Assembly: GCA_026002855.1 (NCBI GenBank)
Contig: BPGD01000001.1
Coordinates: forward strand, 1,515,972 to 1,579,971
Length of the DNA: 64,000 bases
Reading direction: 5' to 3'
Origin: Bryobacteraceae bacterium
Lineage (GTDB): Bacteria; Acidobacteriota; Terriglobia; Bryobacterales; Bryobacteraceae
Below are positions 19,617 to 35,056 of the stretch, piece after piece (positions within the stretch are counted from its first letter, which is position 1; each line of letters opens with the position of its first letter). Below the pieces are notes generated by a model. It worked only from the letters and a program-made list of their open reading frames with translations, made no database searches and was not told where the DNA came from. Both the position numbers and the translations under genes were made by a program.

Positions 19617-20958
19617 ATCGTTCGAGCGCCTCCAGCGCGCGGCGGCACAGTTCGGCGTGGCGGGACCTGCGGTCGCGGCCGAGCCGCCGGCGCGTCTCTT
19701 CGTCGAGCTCCGGCAGCAGGTCGAAGGCGATGTTGGCCGGCTGATAGTTGCCGCCGCGTGCGTGCGTCACATAGTGGACCAGCGACCCCAGCGCCGTCTC
19801 GCGGGGCACGGGCCGCGGCTCTTCTCCCCGCGCCATCGCCGCCGCCGCGCGGCCCGCCAGCAGGCCCGTGGCCATGGACTCGACATAACCTTCGACGCCG
19901 GAGATCTGGCCCGCAAACAAAATCCGCGGTTCCCGTTTCAGGCGCAGGCAGCCGTCCAGCAGCGCCGGCGCGTTGATATACGTGTTGCGGTGAATCTGCC
20001 CGAAGCGGAGAAATTCGGCCCGTTCCAGGCCGGGAATCATCCGGAAAATCCGCTTCTGTTCGCTGAATTTCATGTAATTCTGAAAGCCCACCATGTTGTA
20101 GCTGCCCGCGCGGAGATCCTCCTGCCGGAGCTGCACCACCGCCCACGGCCGTTTCCCCGTGCGCGGGTCAATGAGACCCACGGGCTTCATTGGACCGAAG
20201 CGGAGCGTGTCGCGGCCGCGGCGCGCCAGCTCCTCAATGGGCAGGCAGGCCTCGAAGAACGGCACTTTCCCCTCGCGCAGCAGCCGGTCTTCCTCAATGT
20301 GAGCGTCGGCGGGCTCGGCAGCAAGAACCGCGTCAACAAAGGCCTCGTACTCGTCTCGGTTCATCGGGCAATTCAGATAATCGCCGCCCCCATCCAGCGA
20401 TTTCCCATAGCGCGAGGCGGCAAACACCTTTTCCATGTCGATGGTGGCCGCGTCGACAATCGGGCTGATCGAATCGTAGAAGTACAGTCCCCCGCTGCCG
20501 GTAAGCCGCGCGATATCGGCGGCCAGCGCGTCCGACGTGAGCGGCCCGGTGGCGATGATGACGATTCCCCCGGTCGGCACTTCGGTGACTTCCTCGCGCA
20601 CGACGCGGATGCGCCGCTCGCCAAGAATGGCCTGCGTCACTTCCCGCGCGAAAACCTCGCGGTCCACGGTGAGTGCGTGGCCTCCAGGCACACGGGCCCT
20701 CGCCGCCGCCTGCATGCAGAGCGAGCCCAGGAGGCGCAGCTCCTGCTTGAGCAGCCAGGGCGCCGTCCCTTCGGCGTCGCTCTTGAGCGAGTTTGAACAG
20801 ACGAGCTCGGCCAGCTCGCCGGTCCGGTGTGCCGCCGTCTGCCGCACCGGCCGCATTTCGTATAGGATGCATTCCAGACCGGCGCGCGCGATCTGCCAGG
20901 CCGCCTCGGTGCCGGCCAGCCCGCCGCCCAGAACATGAATCACGGCTTTTGATTTCAA
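19591..20958 (-). CDS. trmFO: tRNA (uracil-54-C5)-methyltransferase, folate- and FAD-dependent (TrmFO)
   Basis: A protein of about 455 residues (TTG start at 20958; a GTG at 20943 is the alternative). The N-terminal FAD motif is VIHVLGGGLAGTEAAW. Further hallmarks are YEMRP, HRTGELAELVCSNSLKSD, the middle segment GGGDYLNCPMNRDEYEAF, MKPVGLIDPRTGKRPWAVVQLRQED, and the C-terminal TPR-like LLPELDEETRRRLGRDRR. TrmFO makes ribothymidine in the T-loop of tRNA using methylene-tetrahydrofolate. It is in the same direction as xerC with which it overlaps, and it is divergent from the M61 peptidase gene whose start lies 24 bases from the TTG. No ribosome-binding site is clear for either start. Confidence 0.95.
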   Translation of the reverse strand: MKSKAVIHVLGGGLAGTEAAWQIARAGLECILYEMRPVRQTAAHRTGELAELVCSNSLKSDAEGTAPWLLKQELRLLGSLCMQAAARARVPGGHALTVDREVFAREVTQAILGERRIRVVREEVTEVPTGGIVIIATGPLTSDALAADIARLTGSGGLYFYDSISPIVDAATIDMEKVFAASRYGKSLDGGGDYLNCPMNRDEYEAFVDAVLAAEPADAHIEEDRLLREGKVPFFEACLPIEELARRGRDTLRFGPMKPVGLIDPRTGKRPWAVVQLRQEDLRAGSYNMVGFQNYMKFSEQKRIFRMIPGLERAEFLRFGQIHRNTYINAPALLDGCLRLKREPRILFAGQISGVEGYVESMATGLLAGRAAAAMARGEEPRPVPRETALGSLVHYVTHARGGNYQPANIAFDLLPELDEETRRRLGRDRRSRHAELCRRALEALERYERAGTLD

Positions 20959-20981
20959 GCTAATCCCATTGTAGGACCGAC

Positions 20982-22802
20982 ATGACCCGACGCCTGCTTC
21001 TTTTTCTCGCCCTTTCACTGGTTGCCGCAGCGCAGCCCTCCGTCCGTTACACGCTGCGGTTCCCCCAGCCCCACACGCATTACGTCGAGGTGACCGCGAC
21101 GGCGCCGGCCGGCCGCCAGGAAGTCCAGCTCTACATGCCGGTGTGGACGCCCGGCTCGTATCTCGTGCGCGAGTACTCGCGTTTCGTCGAAGACTTCCGG
21201 GCGCAGGATCCGCAGGGCCGCCCGCTCGCCTGGGAGAAGACGCGCAAGAATCGCTGGAAAGTTCATGCCGGCGGCGCGCCGGAGATCATCGTTTCCTACC
21301 GTGTCTACGCCCGCGACATGGCCGTCCAGGGCAACTGGGTGGACGCCTCCTTCGCGATGCTCAACGGCGCGCCAACGTTCATCACGCTGGCCGGAGCGGG
21401 CAGGATGCGTCACGAAGTCCGGCTGGAGCTGCCGCCGGCCTGGTCGAAATCGATCAGCGGCATGCGCGAAGGGCCGGTGCCGCATTCCTGGATCGCCGAA
21501 GACTACGATGAGCTGGTCGACTGCCCCATCTACGCCGGCAACGCGCCCATCCATGAATTCACTGTGGCCGGAAAGAAGCATTTTCTGGTGAATGAGGGCG
21601 AAGGGCCGTGGTGGGACGGCCCGTCTTCGGCCCGCGACGTGGCGAAAATCGTCGAGGTTTACGCCCGCATGTTCGGCGGATTGCCATACGAAAAATATGT
21701 CTTCTTCAACCTGCTCAACGGCGCGGGCGGCGGCCTCGAGCACCGTAATTCCACCTGGATGAACACAAGCCGCTGGGCCTATGGCAACACTCAGGACATC
21801 GAGCCCGGCCCGCCGGACCCTTCCGCTCCGCGCGTGCGGCGGCCCACGCGGCTCGGCTGGCTGGGCCTGGTCAGCCATGAATATTTCCACCTGTGGAACG
21901 TGAAGCGCCTGCGCCCGGTGGAGCTGGGGCCTTTCGATTACGAAAACGAAAATTACACGCGCAGCCTCTGGCTGGCTGAAGGCGTGACGTCGTATTACGG
22001 CCCGCTGGCGCTGGTCCGGGCAAGGCTCTCAAACGAACGGCAGTTCCTTCAGGCCATGTCGCAGGCCATCGGCCAGCTCCAGTCGACGCCCGGAAGGCTG
22101 GTGACGCCGGTCGAACAGGCGAGCTTCGATGCATGGATCGGCCTGTACCGAACAACGGAAAACTCTCCCAATACGACCATCAGCTATTACACGAAAGGGC
22201 AGGTCATTGGGCTGCTGCTCGACGCGAAGATCCGCCGCCTGACCAGCAACCGGCGCTCGCTCGATGATGTGATGCGTGCGGCCTACGAGCGCTACAGCGG
22301 CCCGCGGGGCTACACGCCGCAGGAGTTCCGCGCGCTGGCCAGCGAGATCGCCGGCGCGGACCTTTCAGACTGGTTCCGCCGCGTGCTCGAAACGACCGAA
22401 GAGCTGGACTATTCGGAAATGCTCGACTGGTTTGGCCTGCGCTTCCGGCCTCCGCAGGGCCGTCCGCAGATCCTCACCGGCATCTCGGTGGCGGCAAACA
22501 CGCCAGGCCGTATCGTCGTCTCCGGCCTGCGCCGCTCGACGCCCGCCTACGAGGCCGGGTTCAACGTCGACGATGAGATCCTCGCGGTGAACGGCTTCCG
22601 GGTCCGCCCCGAACTGTGGCCGTCGTTTCTCGAGAACTTCCGGGCCGGTCCTTCAGTGGATGTACTGATTGCCCGCCGCGACCAGCTGATGACGCTGAAA
22701 CTGCCGATCGAGACGCGCCAGCCCGAATCCTGGACGCTCGAGGTCCGCCCGGATGCCACGGCGGAGCAGAAAGCACACCTTGCCGCCTGGCTGAATCCGT
22801 GA
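20982..22802 (+). CDS. M61 family peptidase with PDZ domain
   Basis: A 606-residue protein beginning with a signal peptide (MTRRLLLFLALSLVAAAQ). Residues about 20-200 form an N-terminal beta domain. The zinc-binding motif HEYFH lies at 299-303 in LVSHEYFHLWNVKRLRP, and the third ligand glutamate is in LWLAEGVTSYYGPL. Residues about 490-590 are a PDZ domain with GFNVDDEILAVNGFRV. This layout is that of glycyl-aminopeptidase-like M61 peptidases, which are periplasmic. It is followed 56 bases later by the VWFA gene. Confidence 0.92.
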   Translation: MTRRLLLFLALSLVAAAQPSVRYTLRFPQPHTHYVEVTATAPAGRQEVQLYMPVWTPGSYLVREYSRFVEDFRAQDPQGRPLAWEKTRKNRWKVHAGGAPEIIVSYRVYARDMAVQGNWVDASFAMLNGAPTFITLAGAGRMRHEVRLELPPAWSKSISGMREGPVPHSWIAEDYDELVDCPIYAGNAPIHEFTVAGKKHFLVNEGEGPWWDGPSSARDVAKIVEVYARMFGGLPYEKYVFFNLLNGAGGGLEHRNSTWMNTSRWAYGNTQDIEPGPPDPSAPRVRRPTRLGWLGLVSHEYFHLWNVKRLRPVELGPFDYENENYTRSLWLAEGVTSYYGPLALVRARLSNERQFLQAMSQAIGQLQSTPGRLVTPVEQASFDAWIGLYRTTENSPNTTISYYTKGQVIGLLLDAKIRRLTSNRRSLDDVMRAAYERYSGPRGYTPQEFRALASEIAGADLSDWFRRVLETTEELDYSEMLDWFGLRFRPPQGRPQILTGISVAANTPGRIVVSGLRRSTPAYEAGFNVDDEILAVNGFRVRPELWPSFLENFRAGPSVDVLIARRDQLMTLKLPIETRQPESWTLEVRPDATAEQKAHLAAWLNP

Positions 22803-22858
22803 GATTCTGAAGGCGGCCGCAACGCCCTCCCGGACGGCGGCGTCGGAAAGGAGGAGGG

Positions 22859-24181
22859 ATGATCTTCCGTCCGATTTTCTGGCTGACCCTCGCTGCCGCA
22901 GCCGCCGCATTCGGCCAGGAGCCGCCAGTCTTCCGCTCCGACGTCAGTCTGGTGCGGGTGGACGTGCTGGTCTCTTCGCCCGACCGCCGCCCCGTCACCG
23001 GGCTCTCGGCCGCGGACTTTGTGCTCTACGAAAACCAGCGCGAGCAGCCGATCCGCGGCTTCGCCTCCGACGAGATGCCGCTGGACGTGCTGTTTCTGAT
23101 TGATGTCAGCGTCAGCATGCGGCCCCATGTGGAGCGGATCGCCCGCGCCTCGCGGCAGGCGCTTTCAAGCCTCGCGCCCGGCGACCGGGGTGCCATCATG
23201 GTCTTTGACCGCCAGTCGAGGCTGCGTCTGCCGTGGACGGATTCCCTCGAATCCGTCGCCGCAGGCCTCGATGCCGTAGTCGAACAGGAACAGTTCAACG
23301 GAGGCACGGACATCACCCGAGCCATGCTCGACGCCGCACGCTACGTGCGCTCTTCCTCGCGCAGGGACGGCCGGCGGGCCATCGTGATCCTGACCGACGA
23401 CCAGACCGAACGCGACCGGAACGTGGACCGGGTGCTGCGAGCCCTGGAAGATGCCGATGCCGTCCTGAGCGCGCTCATCGCGCCAGACGCGCTGGGCACG
23501 GGCCGCCCGATGCGCCGGCCCGGCTGGGGCGACATCATCCTGGGCCCCCGCTTCCCTGGCCGGTATCCGGGAACCATTCAGCGGCCGCACACCCGATCCG
23601 CTGGAACCGCGGAAATTGCCCGCGCCTCCGGCGGCGACAGTCTCCCGGTGGAACACGCCGGCGCACTCCGCGAAACCCTTGAGGCACTCCGGCAACGGTA
23701 CTCCCTCTTCTTCTCGGTGCCCGCCGATGCCCGGGTCGGCCAGCGGCGATCCATCTCCGTGGCCCTGGCCCGCGACGCGGCCCGGCGGTATCCCGGAGCC
23801 CAGCTCAAGTATCGGGCTGAATACGTGGTACCGGCCGACTGGACGCCACCGCCTCCTGGAGAGGTCTCCGCTGCGGCAGCCTCGGCGTCAGTGGGACACC
23901 CGGACCAGAATGCGCCAGTGGAAGCGCAGGCGCCCCCAGACGACAGGAGAACCGCAGCGAATGAGCACGCGCTTCCCTCCCGCCGCCGCGCGGCCGGAGA
24001 AAATTACGGGACGCGCGGCCCGGACCCGCGCCTCGGCGTTCCAGCGCCGGCGGAGCCCGTGAACTCCGGGACGAAACCCGCGTCAGACAAAGGCGGATGG
24101 CGCCCGGCGACGCCGCAGGACTATGAGTCTGCCCGCTCGGCCGAAGAGCCAGGCAAGTCTGGCAAGAAGAAGAAAGATTGA
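22859..24181 (+). CDS. Exported VWFA-domain protein of acidobacterial type
   Basis: A 440-residue protein with a strong ribosome-binding site (GGAAAGGAGGG) and a signal peptide (MIFRPIFWLTLAAAAAAFGQ). The segment FRSDVSLVRVDVLVSSPDRRPVTGLSAADFVLYENQREQPIRGF followed by a VWA domain with the MIDAS motif DVSVS (near residue 80) matches the VWFA-related family abundant in Acidobacteria. After the domain (about residue 310) there is a Pro/Ala/Gln-rich low-complexity tail of about 130 residues that ends KKKKD. VWA domains bind ligands through a metal ion; the target is not known. The gene may be co-transcribed with the M61 peptidase. Confidence 0.9.
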   Translation: MIFRPIFWLTLAAAAAAFGQEPPVFRSDVSLVRVDVLVSSPDRRPVTGLSAADFVLYENQREQPIRGFASDEMPLDVLFLIDVSVSMRPHVERIARASRQALSSLAPGDRGAIMVFDRQSRLRLPWTDSLESVAAGLDAVVEQEQFNGGTDITRAMLDAARYVRSSSRRDGRRAIVILTDDQTERDRNVDRVLRALEDADAVLSALIAPDALGTGRPMRRPGWGDIILGPRFPGRYPGTIQRPHTRSAGTAEIARASGGDSLPVEHAGALRETLEALRQRYSLFFSVPADARVGQRRSISVALARDAARRYPGAQLKYRAEYVVPADWTPPPPGEVSAAAASASVGHPDQNAPVEAQAPPDDRRTAANEHALPSRRRAAGENYGTRGPDPRLGVPAPAEPVNSGTKPASDKGGWRPATPQDYESARSAEEPGKSGKKKKD

Positions 24182-24464
24182 GCGCTGGAAAAGGTGTCCA
24201 CGCCTTGCCTTGCGGCAAACACCCGAGCCCAGCCCGAGCGCTGCCGCCTGCGCAGGTCATCGTGTGCGGCCGTGCGCTTCCCTCTTCACGGCCGATTCCT
24301 GGCCGCGTGCATTTTCCGGTTGAGCCACCGCCGACAACAAGCCATCGTTCATCGGCATCGATCATCTTCAACTCGCGAGCCGCCATTCGTGAAGGCGTAC
24401 ACGCACGCGCGGCGCATCAGCACGGCACGCTTGAAAATCACCCTCTTGGGATCCGCGAGTTAAA

Positions 24465-24480
24465 CTCGCCCGAAGGGCGC
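24465..24480. repeat. Palindromic repeat, partial copy
   Basis: CTCGCCC-gaa-GGGCGC, a shorter form of the palindrome at 24535, directly followed by a TTCCATG stretch. Confidence 0.5.
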
Positions 24481-24534
24481 TTCCATGCCTCGACTGGAGC
24501 GAGCTCGCAAGGCGGGTTCTGAGCCGCGACTGAA

Positions 24535-24553
24535 GCTCGCCCGAAGGGCGAGC
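24535..24553. repeat. Palindromic repeat GCTCGCCC-N3-GGGCGAGC
   Basis: Perfect 8-base arms around GAA, identical in arms to the copy at 8291-8309. Confidence 0.6.
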
Positions 24554-24692
24554 GGATGGAGCGGACACTCGAGCTGGAGCAGCGTCCGCGCACTCTTCCG
24601 GGCGGCGCGCCTTGGCCCCTCGTTCCCGCAGCGCTCCGTGCTGCTGGATTCGCGGCTCTGAAGCGAGAACCGCAACAGAGCCGCCACTGGGG

Positions 24693-24714
24693 GCTCGCCC
24701 GCCAGGGTCCGAGC
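24693..24714. repeat. Palindromic repeat variant
   Basis: GCTCGCCC and GAGC arms with GGG internal and a longer loop; part of a directly repeated unit with 24766-24787. Confidence 0.45.
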
Positions 24715-24765
24715 GGAGTTCGAATTATTGTCGAGGGATTCCTCAATTAATCCCTGCAACCGGGG

Positions 24766-24787
24766 GCTCGCCCGCCCGGGCCCGAGC
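24766..24787. repeat. Palindromic repeat variant
   Basis: GCTCGCCC-gccc-GGGcccGAGC, preceded by GGGG as is the copy at 24693, 73 bases upstream. Confidence 0.45.
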
Positions 24788-24903
24788 GGAGGGTGCGGTC
24801 ACCGGCGCGCCCCGCGCGTTCAGGAACCGGCGGCTCTCGGAGCCAGCATTCGCTCCAGAGCTCAGCACGGCTGCTGCCACCGCGATTTTGGGCAGGGCTG
24901 TCC

Positions 24904-26520
24904 TCAGCTCTTCAATCCGAAGTATTGCTCGGCGAGCTCCGGTTTCACCTCCATGGCCCTGGCCCAGCACTGGCGCGCCTCGTCGGCCCGGCCCGTGCTT
25001 TCGAGCACATAACCGAGTCCAACCAGGGCTTCGGCAAAGTCGGGCTTCCACTCGAGCACCTGGCGGTATAGCAGTTCGGCCTCTTCCTTCTGGCCGAGCT
25101 GCTCGTTGAGCACGGCGGCGTTGTAAAGGATCTCCGGATCGCCGTGGCCGGTCTCAATCAACCGCCGGTGATACTGCAGCGCCGCTTCGAGCAGGTTCTG
25201 CCGGAGCGCATTGACGGCGGCTGCCCGGAGAGCCGGCTCCCAGTCCGGGCGCAGCTCCAGTGCCCTTTCAAACGCCTGCGAGGCCGCCTCGTACTGGCCC
25301 GCCTCATAGCAGGCGAGACCCAGGTTCAGCCACGCTTCGGGCCAGTCCGGGCGGGCGCCGACCGCGGCGCGGTACGACTCCGCCGACTCGCCGTAGGCCT
25401 GGCGGTCGTACCTGAGGTTCCCCAGGCGGAACCAGGCGTCGGCGTTGCCCGGCTGGCGCATCGCAAGCACCTCGAGCAGCGCCTCGGCGTCCTCGCGCCG
25501 GCCGGCTTTCTCGTGAATTCCTACGGCCAGCAGGTAGAGGTCCGCCGCGTCCGGGCAGGCTTCGATGCCAGCTCGGCATGCCTCCAGCGCCTCGTCCTGC
25601 CGGCCGAGTTCGATCAGGATCTCCGCCACGCGGATGTGCGCTTCGGTCAAATCAGGCTGTCGGTGGAGCGCCTCGCGGTAGGCGTCCAGAGCCAACTCCA
25701 GTTGGCCCTGCCTGCGCAGGCACAGGCCGAGATTCATCCAGCGCTCCGGCGGACGGCCGTTACGCTCCACCAGCCAACGCAGGTGCTCCGCGGCCGCAGC
25801 GAAGTCCTCCCGCAGATAGGCGGCGTAAGCGGCAGCCTCGTGCGCCGGCTCAGAATCAGGGTGAAGTTCGAGAAGTCGGCGGCTGCATTCTTCGAGCCGA
25901 TCCCCATTCTTCTGCTGACGGTAGATCTGAATCAGGTTGATGAGCGCATCGGGGCCATGGAGCGCGTCAGAGACGAGCGTCTCGTAAATCTCCACGGCCT
26001 GGTCAAGCTCCCCGGTCAGTTGGAGCCCAACGGCCCTGCCGAAGCGCGCCGTAGCGTCCCCGGGATGCCGCTCCAGATAGCGTTCGAGCAGTTCGAGCGC
26101 CTCCTCCGCCCGGTGGAGCCGAAGTTGAGACAGACCCAGCCCAAGCAACGCGGAGTCATTCGAAGGATCGGAAGTCAGAATCGCCTGAAACTGTTCTGCG
26201 GCTTCGGCCCAGCGGCCGGCCTGTTGCATGCACTGCGCCCAGGCCAGGCGGGTCTTCACGTCCCCGCTCGCCAGTTCGTGGAAACGGTCCCAGTCGGACA
26301 GCGCGCCAGCCGCATCGCCCAGCTCGCTGCGTAACATGGCGCGCACCCGCCAGGCCGGAGCATAGTCCGGACGCTTCTCCAGCAGGCGCGTGAGCTCGGC
26401 GACGGCCTCCTCCTTCCTCCCGAGCAGGTGCAGCGCACCCGCCCGGCCAAATTCCGCGGGGATGGCACCTGGGGTGCTCTCCACCGGCTTTGTCTCAATC
26501 TGTTCGTTCCATTCCGACAT
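24904..26520 (-). CDS. TPR-repeat protein (cytoplasmic)
   Basis: A 538-residue protein with no signal peptide. From about residue 30 to the end it is built of about fourteen 34-residue TPR units (for example ARFGRAVGLQLTGELDQAVEIYETLVSDALHGPD and AWLNLGLACYEAGQYEAASQAFERALELRPDWEP). TPR arrays of this size hold protein complexes or dock to enzymes such as glycosyltransferases and chaperones. It lies 22 bases downstream of the double zinc-finger gene and is probably in one operon with it, which makes a functional pairing likely. No enzymatic domain is seen. Confidence 0.88.
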   Translation of the reverse strand: MSEWNEQIETKPVESTPGAIPAEFGRAGALHLLGRKEEAVAELTRLLEKRPDYAPAWRVRAMLRSELGDAAGALSDWDRFHELASGDVKTRLAWAQCMQQAGRWAEAAEQFQAILTSDPSNDSALLGLGLSQLRLHRAEEALELLERYLERHPGDATARFGRAVGLQLTGELDQAVEIYETLVSDALHGPDALINLIQIYRQQKNGDRLEECSRRLLELHPDSEPAHEAAAYAAYLREDFAAAAEHLRWLVERNGRPPERWMNLGLCLRRQGQLELALDAYREALHRQPDLTEAHIRVAEILIELGRQDEALEACRAGIEACPDAADLYLLAVGIHEKAGRREDAEALLEVLAMRQPGNADAWFRLGNLRYDRQAYGESAESYRAAVGARPDWPEAWLNLGLACYEAGQYEAASQAFERALELRPDWEPALRAAAVNALRQNLLEAALQYHRRLIETGHGDPEILYNAAVLNEQLGQKEEAELLYRQVLEWKPDFAEALVGLGYVLESTGRADEARQCWARAMEVKPELAEQYFGLKS

Positions 26521-26542
26521 CGCTCTTCACTCCGATCCTGAT

Positions 26543-28828
26543 TCAACGGTGTTCTGGTGTCTCATCCGGCCCTGCACGAAACAGCCGGGCCTCATCCACC
26601 TGGCTGCCCAAGCCCGTCTTCTGAAACGCCGCCTCCGGAAATCGGCAATACAGGGCTGGCAGCCGGAGCCGCTGTGGCCGCCCCGCCACCGATCCATCAG
26701 ACTGGCGCGGCGGAATCCGTGGAGAAACAGGGGCATGCTCCCCAATCACCCCGTGCAGTGAGCCGAACTCTGGTACGGGGCCCACGGCCACGGCCGACGC
26801 TGGCTCCACGGCCCACAAACCATGCAGTGCCTTCCCGACCCAACCGGCCAGTCCAGGCCGATGCCGGGCAATGGTCAGAACCCTCGGTATGCGCCAGCCG
26901 AGATCCCGTCCGCAGGCGATCGAAGGGCCTGCCGTCGCAAGAGCCGGTTCCGGGATCCATCTGTCACCCGCCTCCGGCCTGACCATGATGACCGCCGTCT
27001 CACACGACCCATGGAAAACCGGCACCTTCAGTCCGCCCCGCTCGGGCAGACGGAGTCCCTGACCCTGCTTTCTCTTCCACCACGCCGCCAAAATGGCGTC
27101 CTCTGGCCGGGCCAACTCCGTCACTTGTTCGGCCTGGACACCGGTTCGCCACACCTCTTCTTCCCGGAGCCGCCTCTCTGGCACAGCCGAACCAGCAGCT
27201 GCCCCGGCGCGCGGCACGGAGCAGGGAAGCAATACATGCGTTTCCCAGGACATCGTTCCACCTGTCAACACCGGGCCCGCGAGGGGCGCCAGCCGAACCT
27301 GCCACGGATTTGCACTCCACAACCAACCGCCGGCCTGCACTGAGAGTCCAGCCCTCGAAGCCTGGGCAGCCGAACGGGAGACAGCGGATGCATAAGCGGG
27401 CCTCAGGTCCCACACATGCTTTCCCTGGCACGGCCATTCCGATCCAACAGGGCCGGCAGGATCTCCACAGAAAGAGATGATGGCATCGGGAAGAACCGGT
27501 TCCGGCCCCGCCTCCGTCATCAGGGCCAACGCTGGACGGCTCACGCACCCAGGCAGCCACCTCGACCCGGTCGTCTGACCAGAGCCCACCACTGGGCGGG
27601 CGGCAGAGACAACATGCACGCTCCCTCGCCTGACTGCCGGGGTGCAAGCAGCCAGGGGAGCCACAAAGGCCAACTTCACCCAACTCGGCCGGACACCTGC
27701 CGCTTCAGCCAGAACCGGACGGTCCTGCCACGCGGTGGCCGTCCGCACCGGACCGGAGGCCAGCGGGCCGGTCAGGGCCCGTAGCGGCTGAAGGAGGTGC
27801 ACGAAAAGCGTCAACAGCGGACGGCTGGTCCATCGCCTCGAACGGGCCATGGGTGAACGCAGGTCCTCACCAGGAACCTTCCCGAACCAGCGCCCCGCCG
27901 CAGCTCCTGGGGGCACGGCATCCTCGGCGCGAACCGGATGGTGAGTGGCCACAGGGACGACGGCGCGCCACCACGCCGTACTCACTTGGCCTGACTTCGT
28001 GCCAGAGAGCCCCGGCAGTCGCGGAGGCACCCACAACACGGACGACATCCAGCAGGACGAGAGCGGCGAGACCTGTCCGGTCAAAGTCAGGCCGGGAATC
28101 TTTCCACGAATCGAAAGCATGAATGCGTTCCGGCGCAGCCCGGTCGGAACAGAAGCTCTTCCGGAAGCCGGGAAGGCCTGGGCCACTTCCTCCGCCTGGA
28201 CCCACTTCTCGCTGGAGCCTACGCGATCTCCGCCAGTACGCACCGGGGCAGGAACGGATCTCAGCGCCGGGCGAGAGGCCGGCTCACCGCAGGCCAACGG
28301 TGCGGCCACGGAAGGGAAAGCCGCCCACAGGAGCGCCGCATCACGCCATGTTTCGGGCAGCGCACTCCGCGTGGCGCCTTCGCCGGTCGGACGAGTCTCT
28401 TCTTTCCCGCGGTTGGACGGAGAGGGCCGGATGATCACCTTGGCCGATTCAGACCGCAGGCGGGATCCGCCGCCCACTCGCCGGTACTTCTTTACCCTTT
28501 CCAGAAACTGCTCGGACTGCTGCCGCCGGTATTGGCGCTCATGCCAGTCCGAACAGAAACGCGCCCCGCGGAGCCGCGCCAGCAGCGGCAGAGGTTGCCC
28601 GCACCAGCGGCACTGCCCGCTCGACTCCCGCCGCCGGTTCTCCCCCTCCTCGGAGACTCCCGCTTCCTCTGGGGCTGGATCCGCCACCGGAGGCGCCATG
28701 CCAAATCGCTCCTGCAACCGGAACGCGTCAGCGTGATCGCTCGAGCAGAATCCGCCGTGGCGCCGGAGAACCTCCTCGGGAAACTCCCTCCGGCACCACT
28801 GGCAGCGATTTGGAGCCCGTTCCGTCAC
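26543..28828 (-). CDS. Double zinc-finger protein with long Trp/Pro/Ala-rich extension (unknown)
   Basis: A 761-residue protein. Two similar metal-binding fingers are at the N terminus: CQWCRREFPEEVLRRHGGFCSSDH (about 9-32) and CRWCGQPLPLLARLRGARFCSDWH (about 73-96), each with a CxxC...C..H pattern, and then a basic helix (ERVKKYRR). The remaining 600 residues have no recognisable domain. They are rich in Ala, Gly, Pro, Arg and Val with many Trp, and show no signal peptide and no coiled coil. The frame is fully open and in phase with its neighbour, and the zinc fingers are well formed, so I take it as a real gene. A zinc ribbon of this 'CxxC...l.rRl.G..fCs..H' style is common at the N terminus of acidobacterial proteins. 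Function unknown. Confidence 0.65.
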   Translation of the reverse strand: MTERAPNRCQWCRREFPEEVLRRHGGFCSSDHADAFRLQERFGMAPPVADPAPEEAGVSEEGENRRRESSGQCRWCGQPLPLLARLRGARFCSDWHERQYRRQQSEQFLERVKKYRRVGGGSRLRSESAKVIIRPSPSNRGKEETRPTGEGATRSALPETWRDAALLWAAFPSVAAPLACGEPASRPALRSVPAPVRTGGDRVGSSEKWVQAEEVAQAFPASGRASVPTGLRRNAFMLSIRGKIPGLTLTGQVSPLSSCWMSSVLWVPPRLPGLSGTKSGQVSTAWWRAVVPVATHHPVRAEDAVPPGAAAGRWFGKVPGEDLRSPMARSRRWTSRPLLTLFVHLLQPLRALTGPLASGPVRTATAWQDRPVLAEAAGVRPSWVKLAFVAPLAACTPAVRRGSVHVVSAARPVVGSGQTTGSRWLPGCVSRPALALMTEAGPEPVLPDAIISFCGDPAGPVGSEWPCQGKHVWDLRPAYASAVSRSAAQASRAGLSVQAGGWLWSANPWQVRLAPLAGPVLTGGTMSWETHVLLPCSVPRAGAAAGSAVPERRLREEEVWRTGVQAEQVTELARPEDAILAAWWKRKQGQGLRLPERGGLKVPVFHGSCETAVIMVRPEAGDRWIPEPALATAGPSIACGRDLGWRIPRVLTIARHRPGLAGWVGKALHGLWAVEPASAVAVGPVPEFGSLHGVIGEHAPVSPRIPPRQSDGSVAGRPQRLRLPALYCRFPEAAFQKTGLGSQVDEARLFRAGPDETPEHR

Positions 28829-28931
28829 GGCTACCTGAATCTTCGGCGGATTCCTGCCCGAAGATTAGCCCGATTCTCGGGAAAAATCCAGACCAGCCTG
28901 AGGTGAGACACTTACCTGCCCCGCTCCCGGG

Positions 28932-28937
28932 TTAGAA
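28932..28937 (+). promoter_or_regulatory. -10-like box (TAGAAT) 7 bases before a start codon
   Basis: TAGAAT is followed by GCCAGC and the ATG at 28945; a weak -35 candidate TTACCT (28911-28916) is 15 bases upstream. No ribosome-binding site lies between the box and the ATG. Confidence 0.4.
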
Positions 28938-28944
28938 TGCCAGC

Positions 28945-30495
<1,551 letters not shown>

Positions 30496-30519
30496 GCCGC
30501 GGCGGCGCATCAGAAGAGC

Positions 30520-31245
30520 ATGAGCAGGCTTTCGGGAAAGACGGCGCTGGTTACCGGCGCCGCGCGCGGCATCGGCCGCGCCATCGCGGAAAGACTCGCC
30601 GCCGATGGCGCGCGCGTCGCGGTGAACTACTCGCGTTCGGCCGCCGCGGCGGAAGAGGTGGCGCGTCGCATCGGCGGCATTGCCCTCCGGGCCGACGTCT
30701 CGCAAAAACACGAAGTACTGGAAATGTTTGACCGGACCGAGGCCGCATTCGGCGGCCTCGACATCGTTGTCAACAACGCCGGAATTGCTCTCATGGGACC
30801 GCTCGGCGATTTCTCCGATGAGGACTTCGAGCGCGTCTTCGCCGTGAACACCCGGGGCGTCTTTTACTGCTGCCGCGAGGCCGCGCGCCGCCTCCGTGAC
30901 GGCGGCCGCATCGTGAATATTTCCACTGGCGCCACCGTGGGCGGCACCGCCGGCGGCGGCGTCTATTGCGCCAGTAAGGCGGCCGTCGAACAGTTCACCC
31001 GGGCGCTGGCGCGCGAGCTCGCCCCGCGCCGCATCACCGTCAACACGGTCTCTCCGGGCTTTACCGAGACGGACATGTTCCACGCGCTGCCCCATCTGGT
31101 GGAGCTGGCGCCAAAGCTGACGCCCCTCGGGCGGGCGGGCCGGCCGGAAGAGATCGCCGCCGTGGTCGCCTGGCTCTGTACGGAGGATGCCGCCTGGATC
31201 ACGGGGCAGAACATTCAGGCCGGTGGCGGGCTCACGATGGTCTGA
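30520..31245 (+). CDS. Short-chain dehydrogenase/reductase (FabG-like)
   Basis: A 241-residue classical SDR. The cofactor motif TGAARGIG lies at residues 11-18, NNAG near 87, and the catalytic YCASK near 150, with a serine about 14 residues earlier (NISTGA). The C terminus WITGQNIQAGGGLTMV matches the FabG branch (3-oxoacyl-ACP reductase-like, NADP(H)-dependent). Many such proteins reduce other substrates, so the fatty-acid role is not assured. Downstream, 9 bases separate it from a convergent gene. Confidence 0.88.
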   Translation: MSRLSGKTALVTGAARGIGRAIAERLAADGARVAVNYSRSAAAAEEVARRIGGIALRADVSQKHEVLEMFDRTEAAFGGLDIVVNNAGIALMGPLGDFSDEDFERVFAVNTRGVFYCCREAARRLRDGGRIVNISTGATVGGTAGGGVYCASKAAVEQFTRALARELAPRRITVNTVSPGFTETDMFHALPHLVELAPKLTPLGRAGRPEEIAAVVAWLCTEDAAWITGQNIQAGGGLTMV

Positions 31246-31254
31246 GGCGGAGCG

Positions 31255-32109
31255 TCAGCGCTGCTCCGGCTCGGCGCGCAGCAGCCCGTCGGCCACCAGC
31301 GCGACGGGACGCAATGAGGCCGGGTCGGTCGTCCGGACAATGTGGGCCCCGCGGACGATGCAGAGCGCGGTGACTGCGGCGGCGGTCATCGGCGACGGCT
31401 CTACGCGGATCTCGGCGTCAAATGGCTGGCCGTCCGGGCTGACGCACACAGGCAGCCGCATCCGTTGGAATTCATCAAGCGCCGCCAGCAGTTCGGTGTT
31501 GGTCTCCTTGCGCTTGCCCATCCCGAAACCGGGGTCGATGGCCAGCCGCGTTCGCTCGATGCCCAGCCGGTTGGCGCGGTTGAGCGCCGCCGTCAGCTCG
31601 GCGGCCACCAGCGAGACCGGATTCTTCCAGGCCCCGAGGCGGGCCCATTTGTCTGGCGTGCCGCGCATGTGCTGAAGCACAAGGGCCGCGTCATGCCGGA
31701 GCACAATGCGGCCAAGGTCCTGGTCGAGAGTGAGTCCGCTGGGATCGCGGATGATGCGCGCCCCGTATCCGATGGCCTTTTCCGCCACGGCCGGCTTCCA
31801 GGTCTGAACCGAGACAGGCACCGGAAGCTTTCCGCGCAGGCGTTTGAGGATCGGCACCAGGCGCCGCAGCTCCTCGGCCTCGCTGAGCAGCGCGATGCCG
31901 GGCGAGTAGCGCTCGGCGGCGATCTCGATGAAATCGGCGCCCGCGTCGACCAGCTCATGGGCGCGGACGAAGGCCCGGTCCGGCTCCTCGTAGGTGCGCA
32001 CGCCGCGCTCGGGCGGCGGCCACGCTTCGATGACGCCGCACACCAGCGTGCGCTCGCCCAGCCGCCACACTTCCTGGCCGATTTTCCACTCGACGCGATT
32101 CCGGGGCAT
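31255..32109 (-). CDS. Dihydropteroate-synthase-like protein lacking catalytic residues
   Basis: A 284-residue TIM-barrel protein whose fold and length follow dihydropteroate synthase. The family's core segment is kept: LAIDPGFGMGKRKETNTELL. But nearly all pterin and pABA contacts known in FolP differ: the GILNVTPDSFSDGG loop is replaced by GVIEAWPPPERG; IDVGGESTRPG by IEIAAERYSPG; SVDTSKPEV by SVQTWKPAV (the key Asp is Gln); and the SRKSMIG lysine and RVHD motifs by CVSPDGQPF and VRTTDP. I infer it cannot catalyse the DHPS reaction in the usual way and may bind a different ligand. It starts 11 bases after mcrC stop. A true folP is not in the window. Confidence 0.75.
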   Translation of the reverse strand: MPRNRVEWKIGQEVWRLGERTLVCGVIEAWPPPERGVRTYEEPDRAFVRAHELVDAGADFIEIAAERYSPGIALLSEAEELRRLVPILKRLRGKLPVPVSVQTWKPAVAEKAIGYGARIIRDPSGLTLDQDLGRIVLRHDAALVLQHMRGTPDKWARLGAWKNPVSLVAAELTAALNRANRLGIERTRLAIDPGFGMGKRKETNTELLAALDEFQRMRLPVCVSPDGQPFDAEIRVEPSPMTAAAVTALCIVRGAHIVRTTDPASLRPVALVADGLLRAEPEQR

Positions 32110-32120
32110 CTATCTCCATC

Positions 32121-33602
32121 CTACGCGGCCTCACTGCGAAGCTCACGAAGCGCGTCAATGAGCGGTTCGGCGGCCTCCTCCACGCGGGCCTCCATCGGCA
32201 ATACGCTCAGCCACAGTTCACAGCTCCTCCCACTGGCGGGTACGGACGCCCTCTGGATCAGCAGACGCCGCCGCTTCAACGAGTCCCATGTCTCCTTTCG
32301 GCAGGGATAAACCAGCAGGGCAACGATTCTTTTCGACCAAAACAGTGAGGAATAAGCAAGCACCTGATGAACGTCGGCCCGATGACTTTCCCGCGTTTTC
32401 TCTGCCACTTCACGGTGGGAATAGGTGGCGAATTCTTCCAGGTGGCGCTTGTATTTTGCATCCGCCACCAGCGTAAAATCAGGTGCTTCCATCACGAAAT
32501 CAGGAACCAAGCTGAGCTGCGTGCCTGCTGACGGAGGATCCCACCGCAGCGGCACCTGGGTTTTCCGCGTTCTTCCACAACGAAGGATTCCACCCGTGTA
32601 TCGGTTCACATATGCCAGGACACACTCCACCCAGGCCTCGAAGAACTGATTCATGTCCATGACCCACGGGATGCCTTCCAGGTCGCAGAGCCCCGCCAGG
32701 CCGCGCTCGTCAGCGGTCCATTCGATGGCCTCCAGGCCCTGATACAACGCCTCACCGCGCAAAGGCAGGCGGGCGACCGCCTGTGTGAGCACACTCGTGG
32801 GACGAACGGCCGCTGCGTCTCGTACCGAATGCAGCAGAGCGTGGGCACGTTCGAGAAGCTGATGCACAAACGCTCCATGTTCCAGCTGTGAAGTCAGGCT
32901 GCGCGCCTGGGCCTCCAGGGTCCAGCGGATCATGCCCTTCAGCAGCCGGTCGTCGCGCAGGTCCGGATACCTGCACGGAACGTGGTGAAGATTCCCGCGT
33001 GCAAGCTGATGCGCGATATACCGCTGCCAGCGGATCGTCCCCCGCGGAGACGCCAGAACGTCCTCGGTCAGCTCAAACCGGCGCACCAACTGGTGGATCA
33101 GCCGTTCGAGCCGTTCCACTACCATCAGCGAAATCACCCACGGCGGGACGCGACGCTCGGATCGGCGCAGAAGTGGCAGGCGCAATGGACGCGGGGCAAC
33201 TCGCCAACCCATCTGTCCCAGCATCGGCCCTAGGCCTTTCCACGGAAATCGGGGCTGGATTATCAGCCCGTAATCCATCTTTCCGCTGAGCGGGGAGACC
33301 AGCGGAACCGCACCCACTGGCGAAGACGTCTGCACCGTCAAATACACACGATGGCCGTCAAACTCTGAGGCAACACGCAGGCCCAGGACGTCAAAGATGC
33401 GGCGGTTCTGCTCCTGAAACTGTTCCGCCAGCCGACCGTGGCTGGTAGCCGCAGTTCGCCGATCACCGGCAGGAAAAAGCCTCTCGCAGGGGAACCGCCC
33501 TTCCGAGTGATCTTCGAGTTCAAGACAGACGGTTTCCGCAGGCGTGGCCCGCAACAGCGGAACACGCGCGCCGCTGTCCGCCTTGGTCTTCGCCTTGCTC
33601 AT
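32121..33602 (-). CDS. mcrC: McrC-like subunit of a McrBC-type restriction system
   Basis: A 493-residue protein whose ATG (33602) overlaps the mcrB stop by 4 bases (ATGA). The N-terminal half resembles McrC, and the C-terminal half contains a PD-(D/E)XK nuclease core: SLVPDFVMEAPDFTLVADAKYK with Asp...Asp-Ala-Lys. McrBC cleaves DNA with modified cytosine, or foreign DNA, with GTP hydrolysis by McrB. A longer in-frame extension upstream would overlap mcrB and is rejected. No DNA methyltransferase or third subunit accompanies it. Confidence 0.82.
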   Translation of the reverse strand: MSKAKTKADSGARVPLLRATPAETVCLELEDHSEGRFPCERLFPAGDRRTAATSHGRLAEQFQEQNRRIFDVLGLRVASEFDGHRVYLTVQTSSPVGAVPLVSPLSGKMDYGLIIQPRFPWKGLGPMLGQMGWRVAPRPLRLPLLRRSERRVPPWVISLMVVERLERLIHQLVRRFELTEDVLASPRGTIRWQRYIAHQLARGNLHHVPCRYPDLRDDRLLKGMIRWTLEAQARSLTSQLEHGAFVHQLLERAHALLHSVRDAAAVRPTSVLTQAVARLPLRGEALYQGLEAIEWTADERGLAGLCDLEGIPWVMDMNQFFEAWVECVLAYVNRYTGGILRCGRTRKTQVPLRWDPPSAGTQLSLVPDFVMEAPDFTLVADAKYKRHLEEFATYSHREVAEKTRESHRADVHQVLAYSSLFWSKRIVALLVYPCRKETWDSLKRRRLLIQRASVPASGRSCELWLSVLPMEARVEEAAEPLIDALRELRSEAA

Positions 33603-35056
33603 CCGAGGGCCTCGATCTCCTGGATCAAAGCACGGATGTTTTCGGCAAAACCTGCCACAAAACCCTGGGCCAGGTATTCGTTCAGCAGCGGGACCAGCTC
33701 CCGCTTCAACCTCAGCCGTGCTTCGCTGTCGTTCAATGCCAGGAAATAGGAGTGTCCAGGCACCAGGGGCATGGCTTCCTCCGACGCGTGTTCGACAAAA
33801 ACGGACACCACTTTTTGAAAGAACTCTACTGCCAGGGGACACGATGTTTCGTTCACTACACGATAGTCCGGCCAGAGGTCGACGAAGGCGAACCTGCGCC
33901 GAACGGCCACATCCACCAGAGCAATACTGCGATCGGCCGTATTCATTGTCCCCAGAATGTGAAGCTTCTCCGGAAGCCGGAGCCGATCCCCGGTCGGCGG
34001 GCCAAAATCGTACGCCAGCTTCACCTCCCGTACCGGGTCCCCAGCCTCAAGCAGAACGATCGCCTCACCCAGCACCTTCGCCAGATCGGCCCGGTTGATC
34101 TCGTCGATCACCAGCAGATATCTGTCGTCTCCCGCCTCCGCAGCCGCCTCGATCAGGTGTCCGCGGCGAGGAGCGAACCGAAGGCCCGTCGCATCCCCGT
34201 CCGGCACGGGGGCCAGGCCGCCGATGAAATTTTCATAGGTGGTATTGGCGTGAAATTGAACAAAGCGGCCGCGGCCTCGATAGCTTTGTTCAAGCAGGCG
34301 CTTCGCCATTCTCGTCTTGCCTGTCCCCGGAGGCCCCTGGAGGATCACAAATCGTCTCTGATCGAGCAGTTGCTCCACCATGCTCTCTTCAACCGTTGGC
34401 AGTATGTGGGCAAACCACTGCGATCGAATCCGCTCCGCACTCTCAGACCCCGCCTTGAGCGGCCTGTAACCGCGCTCCTCCATGAGTAGATCGAGAAAGG
34501 CCAGCACCGCGTCCCCGGTGATCTCGACGTCTTCGGGCGAAGCGGGGCGGAACACCGCGTACATCTCCCTGCCATAGCGGTTGAAAGCAGCCTTCATCTC
34601 GGGCCAACGGCTGGCAACCCCTGACGGCAGGTTGAGATCAATCCGCGTCGGGTCCTGTTTGGCCCAGGCCGATCCCCGTTGTCGCCGGTTCAGCCACGCG
34701 CAGATGGCACGAGTCTTCCGGGCATGCCCTGGACGGCTGAGAACGCCCTCATCGGGACTCAACCCCTGAGTCCCCACCACCATTCCGATCAGACAGGGCC
34801 GTTCCCATCCTTCAGCCGGGAAAAACACCAGCGAGGTTCCGCCGTAAGCCCCACTGTCCGGGTTGATCGGATGAATGTAGGCCGCATAGGGGACGTCGAT
34901 GTCTTCAGGTGCACGAAGCTTGACCGAATTTTTCGCTTCGGCCGGATAACGGCCCCTCCCTGACCCGAAAAATCCCTCGAGGATTTCCTGATGTTTCTTG
35001 GCCCACTCCGACTTCTTTGGCCGAAGGATCAGCTCCACGAGCTCGTCGATCGCCAT
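33599..35056 (-). CDS. mcrB: McrB-like AAA+ GTPase of a McrBC-type restriction system
   Basis: A 485-residue protein. The AAA+ motor is clear: GPPGTGKT at about 239-246, LLVIDEINRAD near 317, and MNTADRS near 375, the McrB signature. The N-terminal 220 residues do not look like E. coli McrB's DNA-binding domain: they carry VPYAAYIHPINPDSGAYGGTSLVFFP and LIGMVVGTQGLSPDEGVLSRPGHARKTRA and probably recognise the modified base or another signal. The gene lies 3 bases after the ABC permease stop and overlaps mcrC, so it is embedded in a long operon. Its GC content appears lower than that of flanking genes, consistent with transfer. Confidence 0.87.
   Translation of the reverse strand: MAIDELVELILRPKKSEWAKKHQEILEGFFGSGRGRYPAEAKNSVKLRAPEDIDVPYAAYIHPINPDSGAYGGTSLVFFPAEGWERPCLIGMVVGTQGLSPDEGVLSRPGHARKTRAICAWLNRRQRGSAWAKQDPTRIDLNLPSGVASRWPEMKAAFNRYGREMYAVFRPASPEDVEITGDAVLAFLDLLMEERGYRPLKAGSESAERIRSQWFAHILPTVEESMVEQLLDQRRFVILQGPPGTGKTRMAKRLLEQSYRGRGRFVQFHANTTYENFIGGLAPVPDGDATGLRFAPRRGHLIEAAAEAGDDRYLLVIDEINRADLAKVLGEAIVLLEAGDPVREVKLAYDFGPPTGDRLRLPEKLHILGTMNTADRSIALVDVAVRRRFAFVDLWPDYRVVNETSCPLAVEFFQKVVSVFVEHASEEAMPLVPGHSYFLALNDSEARLRLKRELVPLLNEYLAQGFVAGFAENIRALIQEIEALG

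Follow-up and report, generated by a model that had tools for sequence, protein, structure and literature searches.

Here we describe a two-gene operon in a 64,000-nucleotide stretch of the genome of a Bryobacteraceae bacterium (assembly GCA_026002855.1, contig BPGD01000001.1, positions 1,515,972 to 1,579,971; hereafter the window), which encodes a 761-residue double zinc-finger protein and, beginning 22 bases after its stop codon on the same strand, a 538-residue tetratricopeptide repeat (TPR) protein. Finger-TPR gene pairs of this kind recur across the family Bryobacteraceae, and the finger proteins combine conserved ends with a long middle part of which the reading frame is kept and the sequence is not. 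We give about an even chance to the interpretation that the operon specifies a two-protein cytoplasmic scaffold, made up of ends that bind, a disordered Trp-rich tether and a TPR clamp, which would be anchored in the membrane in the usual relatives (type I) and soluble in the window copy. The operon had been singled out in an earlier note made from the letters of the window, and the coordinates of both open reading frames (ORFs), their sizes and the gap between them were confirmed.

Conservation of the finger-TPR pair

The family was represented by 237 genomes. A finger profile built from 12 fingers matched 167 of them at E≤0.01, often several times per genome. The usual relative, type I, has one finger, a hypervariable linker, a transmembrane (TM) segment and a conserved domain of ~200 residues with a predicted CBM66-like lectin fold. 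A profile of this lectin-type domain matched 161 of the 237 genomes; order-wide, it was found in 168 of 257, including 5 of the 20 that lie beyond the family. In a sample of 396 genomes from the phylum, three matching genomes lay in the family and 14 others gave weak matches (best E 1.6e-12). The two of these others that were read, L206 and L207, encode other proteins, which carry remote relatives of the domain at the C-terminus and, by eye, PEGA-like repeats. In named genomes, a single peptide pattern from the domain retrieved 74 loci, with titles mainly of Bryobacteraceae, Bryobacterales, Acidobacteria and Terriglobia. Four records carry the Bryobacteraceae-type domain under the names Arcobacter, Armatimonadetes, Acetobacteraceae and Acidimicrobiia (L111, L112, L131, L153), and these titles are probably wrong.

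In 73 loci with a lectin-domain ORF, a finger was found in 61, and the contig start cuts the ORF in six. A TPR ORF followed the lectin-domain ORF in all 70 loci with more than 600 bases downstream, at spacings from -120 to +400 bases, with a 4-base overlap the commonest. A second set, partly overlapping the first, consisted of 52 finger ORFs from the window slice and 50 loci chosen from the matches. Here a TPR ORF (at least 30 bits) came after the finger ORF in 44 of the 48 cases with at least 600 bp downstream, and the same was true for 17 of the 20 finger ORFs that lack the lectin domain. The co-occurrence of the two genes, which the earlier note had proposed as a check, is seen in both sets. 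The putative undescribed two-protein complex of that note has support at the level of the genes, in that the pairing is conserved across the family and neither Pfam nor NCBIfam has a name for the finger protein or for its tail.

A variable tail between conserved ends

The window protein was compared within its genus, represented by five members (G000-G004). An ORF of the 761-residue type is present in all five, with lengths of 761 to 921 residues and a GTG start in each. By pair, identity is 54-76% in the finger region, 27-36% in the tail and 65-88% in the TPR partner; in one species pair, the ~580-residue middle is 36% identical while the TPR partners are 88% identical. Codon positions 1/2/3 of the G003 and G002 tails are identical at fractions of 0.57/0.57/0.50, against 0.90/0.96/0.67 for the TPR genes. 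By these figures, amino-acid sites of the tail are more diverged than the third positions of the TPR gene, although alignment error may inflate the divergence of the tail. Beyond the tail, a short C-terminal block with the consensus P-[EQL]-R-L-[RK]-L-x2-L-x2-R-F is in frame in all five genus members, and a protein from another genus (L201) ends in PERLRLP.

Despite this divergence the frame stays open. The window tail has no stop in 621 codons in frame, whereas the two remaining forward frames have 17 and 9 stops and the three reverse frames 5-6 each; shuffles gave a mean of 14.3 stops and a minimum of 7. From codon 141 onward, none of the five genus tails has an in-frame stop, while their other forward frames have 10-17 and 4-13 and their reverse frames 3-15. 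In all, eight tails were examined, each with no stop over 452-871 codons. Trp is enriched in the true frame of the five genus tails, with 125 residues observed against 63 expected from position-specific base composition (2.0-fold), and in frames 2 and 3 it stands at 86 against 100 (0.86-fold) and 61 against 57 (1.08-fold); the five counts are not independent, since the tails are related. The Trp residues are irregularly spaced, and the idea of a simple repeat or binding motif in the tail was rejected. The earlier note had held that a lack of conservation outside the fingers would indicate a random frame. As a test this misleads here: the sequence of the tail is hardly kept, while frame, length class, Trp content and C-terminal block are.

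The same pattern is seen beyond this genus. In five type I proteins (three from the genus g1 of the window copy, two from named records), identity is 51-83% in the finger, 27-50% in the linker and 71-86% in the TM segment and lectin-type domain. In three species of another genus, g53, the first ~175 and last ~40 residues are nearly fixed and the middle far less so; in three species of g25, the ends are likewise conserved and the middle variable. Hypervariability is, on these alignments, a property of the whole finger-TPR system.

Two candidate patterns in the tails were set aside. The motif [RK][LMVFI]P occurs 6-9 times per g1 tail, against a shuffle expectation of ~2, and is not over expectation in three type I linkers; we draw no claim from it, because it was one of several patterns tried and because of this result in type I. 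The G001 tail looked repeated by eye, and Tandem Repeats Finder (TRF) found no array in it. The unusually long linker of G017 does contain a 297-base tandem array.

Zinc fingers and TPR partner

Both CxxC...C..H fingers of the earlier note are present (Table 1), and the second is the one common to the window protein and the wider family. The family finger profile scores 89 bits on it in one search and 94.9 bits in another, the window protein being itself a row of that profile. With the window protein alone as query, finger relatives were recovered in G017, G027, G028, G032 and G035 (E 2e-7 to 6e-3). All 12 of the fingers aligned keep the ligands C, C, C and H, and they would be treble-clef-like and zinc-binding. 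Around residues 91-120, in and after finger 2, AlphaFold2 (AF2) gives a block with predicted local distance difference test (pLDDT) values of 54-74. No Pfam or NCBIfam family matches the 761-residue protein at E≤1, which agrees with the earlier statement that the long part after the fingers has no known domain; PADLOC models gave no match for the finger protein either.

The 538-residue partner is covered by TPRs over most of its length, with many Pfam and NCBIfam TPR families above cut-off; TPR_2 alone reaches 153 bits in 9 stretches. Its TPR nature had been recognised before, with 14 repeats where we count 15 by eye. The NCBIfam model LcrH_SycD also passes its cut-off (120.1 versus 104.8), which we treat as cross-matching between repeats and not as identity. 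A role as a defence system was considered and rejected: PADLOC matched only the TPR protein, with PrimPol (E 2.4e-16) and PDC-M71B (E 5.1e-4), and both were read as TPR cross-matches.

Type I relatives

The TM segment and domain of type I proteins were modelled by AF2 from an alignment of 44 rows, which gave a helix at residues 26-46 and a block with pLDDT 88-98 over residues 91-260. By Foldseek and VIA-align, the domain resembles the CBM66 of levanase (4azz; E 1.1e-8, Z 19.0, root-mean-square deviation 2.2 over 151 residues, 19% identity), followed by many galectin- and concanavalin-like domains. No Pfam family reaches a trusted score on the domain, and the CBM66 profile gives E 0.17. We take the likeness as a resemblance of predicted folds, with sugar binding no more than a prediction. 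Hydropathy before the domain reaches 1.6 in 65 of 89 ORFs with both finger and lectin-type domain. Such a layout would place the finger and linker in the cytoplasm and the lectin fold in the periplasm.

The window copy and its branch

A quick tree of the TPR proteins (55 rows, with long branches) groups the window copy with G001-G004 (99) and then with L201 (100), which comes from genome G231 and has two fingers and no lectin domain. Next come the three-finger L100 and L196 together with L018, L185 and L186, completing an 11-row branch (SH-like approximate likelihood ratio test, SH-aLRT, 94) that we call soluble, or type III. No lectin-domain match was found in any of these 11 rows, and none was flagged for a TM segment. 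In a family search at E≤1e-6, the only double-finger protein beyond the genus that matched over its full length was L201 of G231; the matches in G233 and G235 were shorter, and the g53 genomes G120, G121, G122 and G124 matched with a three-finger form. A six-frame search of the window copy's own genome found no lectin domain hidden in the window tail; its lectin-domain matches are confined to 2071099 and 500546, both beyond the window. By these sequence criteria, the branch of the window copy has neither the lectin domain nor a clear TM segment.

The same genome has two further finger-TPR pairs, L089, which is type I with a CarD neighbour by Pfam, and L184 (365-9047), which has a large BatA/VWA-domain protein (Pfam) in its vicinity. 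It also has a short protein with a partial finger, TM segment and lectin-type domain (L183, 4175-5152), in a 10-kb locus with no TPR match.

A proposed tethered scaffold

Fixed ends, a variable middle with a kept frame and a regular TPR neighbour are the reasons for proposing a scaffold that is tethered and clamped by the TPR protein. The binding ends would be the N-terminal fingers, the predicted basic helix that follows these, and the short block at the C-terminus, and the ~580-residue Trp-rich segment would be a disordered tether that has kept its frame and chemistry and not its sequence. The TPR solenoid encoded by the next gene would be the regular partner, clamping one end or Trp-containing stretches of the tether. 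In type I proteins, finger and tether would lie in the cytoplasm, followed by one TM helix and a CBM66/galectin-like lectin fold in the periplasm; anchored across the membrane in this way, they would link a signal from the envelope or from a glycan with the TPR protein inside. The copy in the window, of the soluble branch, would lack the anchor and act in the cytoplasm.

Several observations weigh against this interpretation. AF2 of the window protein, the structure prediction proposed in the earlier note, gave a mean pLDDT of 34 from a run without an alignment, which says little and is no proof of disorder. Enrichment of Trp followed by Arg is modest (26 of 125, against 12), and no clean repeated binding motif was found. 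As to the pairing, six of the 73 lectin ORFs are uncut by a contig start and have no finger match (two of them are short ORFs), and all of the 70 loci in which TPR pairing was complete were drawn with the one peptide pattern. Four of the 48 finger ORFs have no adjacent TPR: in L021 it is a small finger ORF in tandem, in L101 the gene is split, L183 is the short protein, and L188 lies close to the end of its contig. The TPR counted for L200 is a 112-residue fragment of 34 bits. The contrast in TM segments is graded: 15 of the 89 ORFs with finger and lectin-type domain have a hydropathy of 1.2-1.6 and nine are lower, in some cases owing to a helix that falls outside the fixed stretch, and the best values in the soluble branch range from 0.94 to 1.64 (L018 1.64; window 1.30). 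Finally, lectin-less pairs also occur outside the soluble branch, on long branches (L098, L184, L198 and the second pair of L119).

A bolder and tentative extension, which we consider possible and would not favour, is that the system is a lineage-specific bacterial organiser with no described counterpart. It would form a class of its own, defined by conserved finger and C-terminal ends, a fast tether and a dedicated TPR clamp, with anchored, pilus-cluster and soluble duplicates; the amino-acid sites of the tether would then be changing at least as fast as the third codon positions of the neighbouring gene, with its frame and Trp chemistry preserved. On this extension, the soluble version could, by its Trp and Arg residues, form a sticker-type cytoplasmic condensate. 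The pair is in any case conserved and often multi-copy in a large bacterial family, with a finger protein unnamed by Pfam, NCBIfam and PADLOC, and suggests that Acidobacteriota have envelope or cytoplasm organisers of their own. Its near-neutral tethers between fixed ends would offer a natural series in which to test what a disordered linker must keep.

Comparison with known systems

The nearest precedent is ZitP of Caulobacter, a bitopic zinc-finger polarity protein that acts with CpaM, together with AgmX of Myxococcus (PMC5182063, PMC5182065). ZitP/AgmX and, as predicted, the type I relatives share an N-terminal cytoplasmic finger, a linker, one TM segment and a C-terminal periplasmic domain, as well as the use of the finger as a protein-docking module and a separate effector protein. 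They differ in their parts. The ZitP finger is zinc_ribbon_5 (PF13719), which is not among the matches of the 12 fingers at E≤10, and its C-terminal domain is DUF3426, which is found neither in the window protein (Pfam) nor among 17 type I C-terminal domains. The linker here is far longer and hypervariable, and a TPR gene follows. In contrast to ZitP with its single TM segment, the window protein has no clear TM segment and no lectin-type domain. In layout, the scaffold is probably somewhat like the ZitP/AgmX polarity proteins without being a member of that group.

The best Pfam likeness of the fingers is to DUF2116 (PF09889, "probable treble clef"), in 5 of 12 with a best E of 0.0064; the window finger scores 13.0 bits against a gathering cut-off of 26.8 and is not a member by score. 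The fold likeness to CBM66 applies to the type I domain, which was not found in the window protein. A TPR solenoid is shared with generic TPR scaffold proteins, but the partner here is tied to the finger gene. Literature searches, which did not cover subscription papers, gave no prior description of this pair among the papers listed, judged by title.

Other explanations

The ZitP precedent also underlies an alternative in which the finger protein would position an envelope machine whose parts are brought in by the TPR protein, on the model of ZitP and the polar pili of Caulobacter (PMC5182063, PMC5182065). Three loci in two genera have the pair among Tad genes: in L190 (7318-9998) and L200 (1300-4333) it precedes TadE, TadE and Tad-VWA genes, and in L019 it lies between two TadE-type genes (204-728 and 3409-3909), one above and one just below the cut-off. 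Such a placement hints at a connection with surface machines in certain lineages. As a general account we consider pilus or surface-structure assembly unlikely, since these are three loci only and the layout is an analogy; furthermore, no Tad genes were recognised by eye among the window ORFs at 20000-34000, and none among the 16 type I neighbour clusters listed.

A role in gene expression, with fingers that bind RNA polymerase or nucleic acid and a transcription-control module to which the TPR protein and a nearby CarD belong, is quite improbable in our judgement. Of 51 loci with enough upstream sequence, 25 do have a CarD-like gene no more than 2.5 kb upstream of the lectin-type operon, as do 18 of 32 long loci, and one lies beside L089 of the window copy's own genome, which suggests a link to transcription in some lineages. 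However, a three-sequence CarD profile found none in a 16-kb slice of the window, nor in the fetched loci of the ten other soluble-branch rows; CarD is more than 1 kb away in some type I loci, and the TM helix and lectin fold of type I fit an envelope role better.

A further reading, in which genuine fingers are followed by a tail that is mere decay or a chance open frame and nothing beyond the fingers and the TPR gene is of importance, would accord with the almost equal divergence of its codon positions, 1 and 2 being scarcely more kept than 3, and with its nearly uniform GC (0.70/0.62/0.69 by codon position). We regard it as very improbable and reject it because of the stop counts, the in-frame C-terminal block and the Trp content, enriched in the true frame only; tails in other genera are similar. 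A secreted or surface-exposed repetitive structural protein, as the earlier note had supposed from the tail and as the length and Pro/Trp/Gly-rich composition might suggest, deserves hardly any credence: TRF at score 30 found no tandem array in the window finger gene (and one 19-bp array in the TPR gene), no 19-residue stretch was flagged for TM at a hydropathy of 1.7, the best being the 1.30 given above, and no leader was seen by eye, without a signal-peptide program, at an N-terminus that is itself a zinc finger.

Features of the locus

The features of the operon are collected in Table 1. The divergent alpha-L-arabinofuranosidase gene is also found, by reading, next to the operon in G001-G004, and the intergenic region between them is likely to hold the promoter of both.

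Table 1. Coordinates in the window of the operon, its parts and its upstream flank
Feature	Position	Strand	Basis or remark
761-residue double zinc-finger protein	26543..28828	-	GTG start; ORF list, Val (GTG)-start orthologues in G001-G004
Finger 1, residues 9-32	28733..28804	-	C9-x2-C12...C28-x3-H32; family profile match weak (17 bits)
Finger 2, residues 73-96	28541..28612	-	C73-x2-C76...C92-x3-H96 (C-x2-C...FCS-x2-H)
Basic/Gln-rich conserved stretch (residues 97-119) following finger 2, predicted as a helix	28472..28540	-	Alignment, AF2
Hypervariable tail, residues 141-716	26681..28408	-	Ala/Pro/Arg/Gly- and Trp-rich
Conserved C-terminal block, residues 717-731	26636..26680	-	RPQRLRLPALYCRFP; aligned in five genus members
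538-residue TPR protein	24904..26520	-	ATG start; about 15 units by eye
Possible Shine-Dalgarno sequence AGGT	5-8 nt upstream of the GTG of the 761-residue ORF		Upstream bases
GGAG	10-13 nt upstream of the ATG of the 538-residue TPR ORF		Upstream bases
Intergenic region	28829..28944		Between the operon and the divergent alpha-L-arabinofuranosidase gene
Alpha-L-arabinofuranosidase gene	28945-30495	+	Pfam Alpha-L-AF_C

An McrB/McrC-like pair lies near the window operon (32121-35056, minus strand; Pfam AAA_5 and McrBC), and its relative at 7641-10588 of L018 (54%/48% identity) is close to the soluble finger-TPR pair of G028. A search of 212 loci, most of them short, gave two matches, both in G028, and the presence of such genes beside soluble pairs may be due to chance. 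On the other side of the operon, a VWA-domain protein (Pfam VWA_2; 22859-24181, plus strand) is convergent with the TPR gene. The intergenic region past the TPR gene (24450-24791) contains two imperfect direct-repeat pairs that look like repetitive extragenic palindromic (REP) elements, one of 36 nt at 24683/24756 (89%) and one of 30 nt at 24450/24521 (87%); the 15-mer GGGGGCTCGCCCGCC, allowing at most one mismatch, occurs within the window only in this region.

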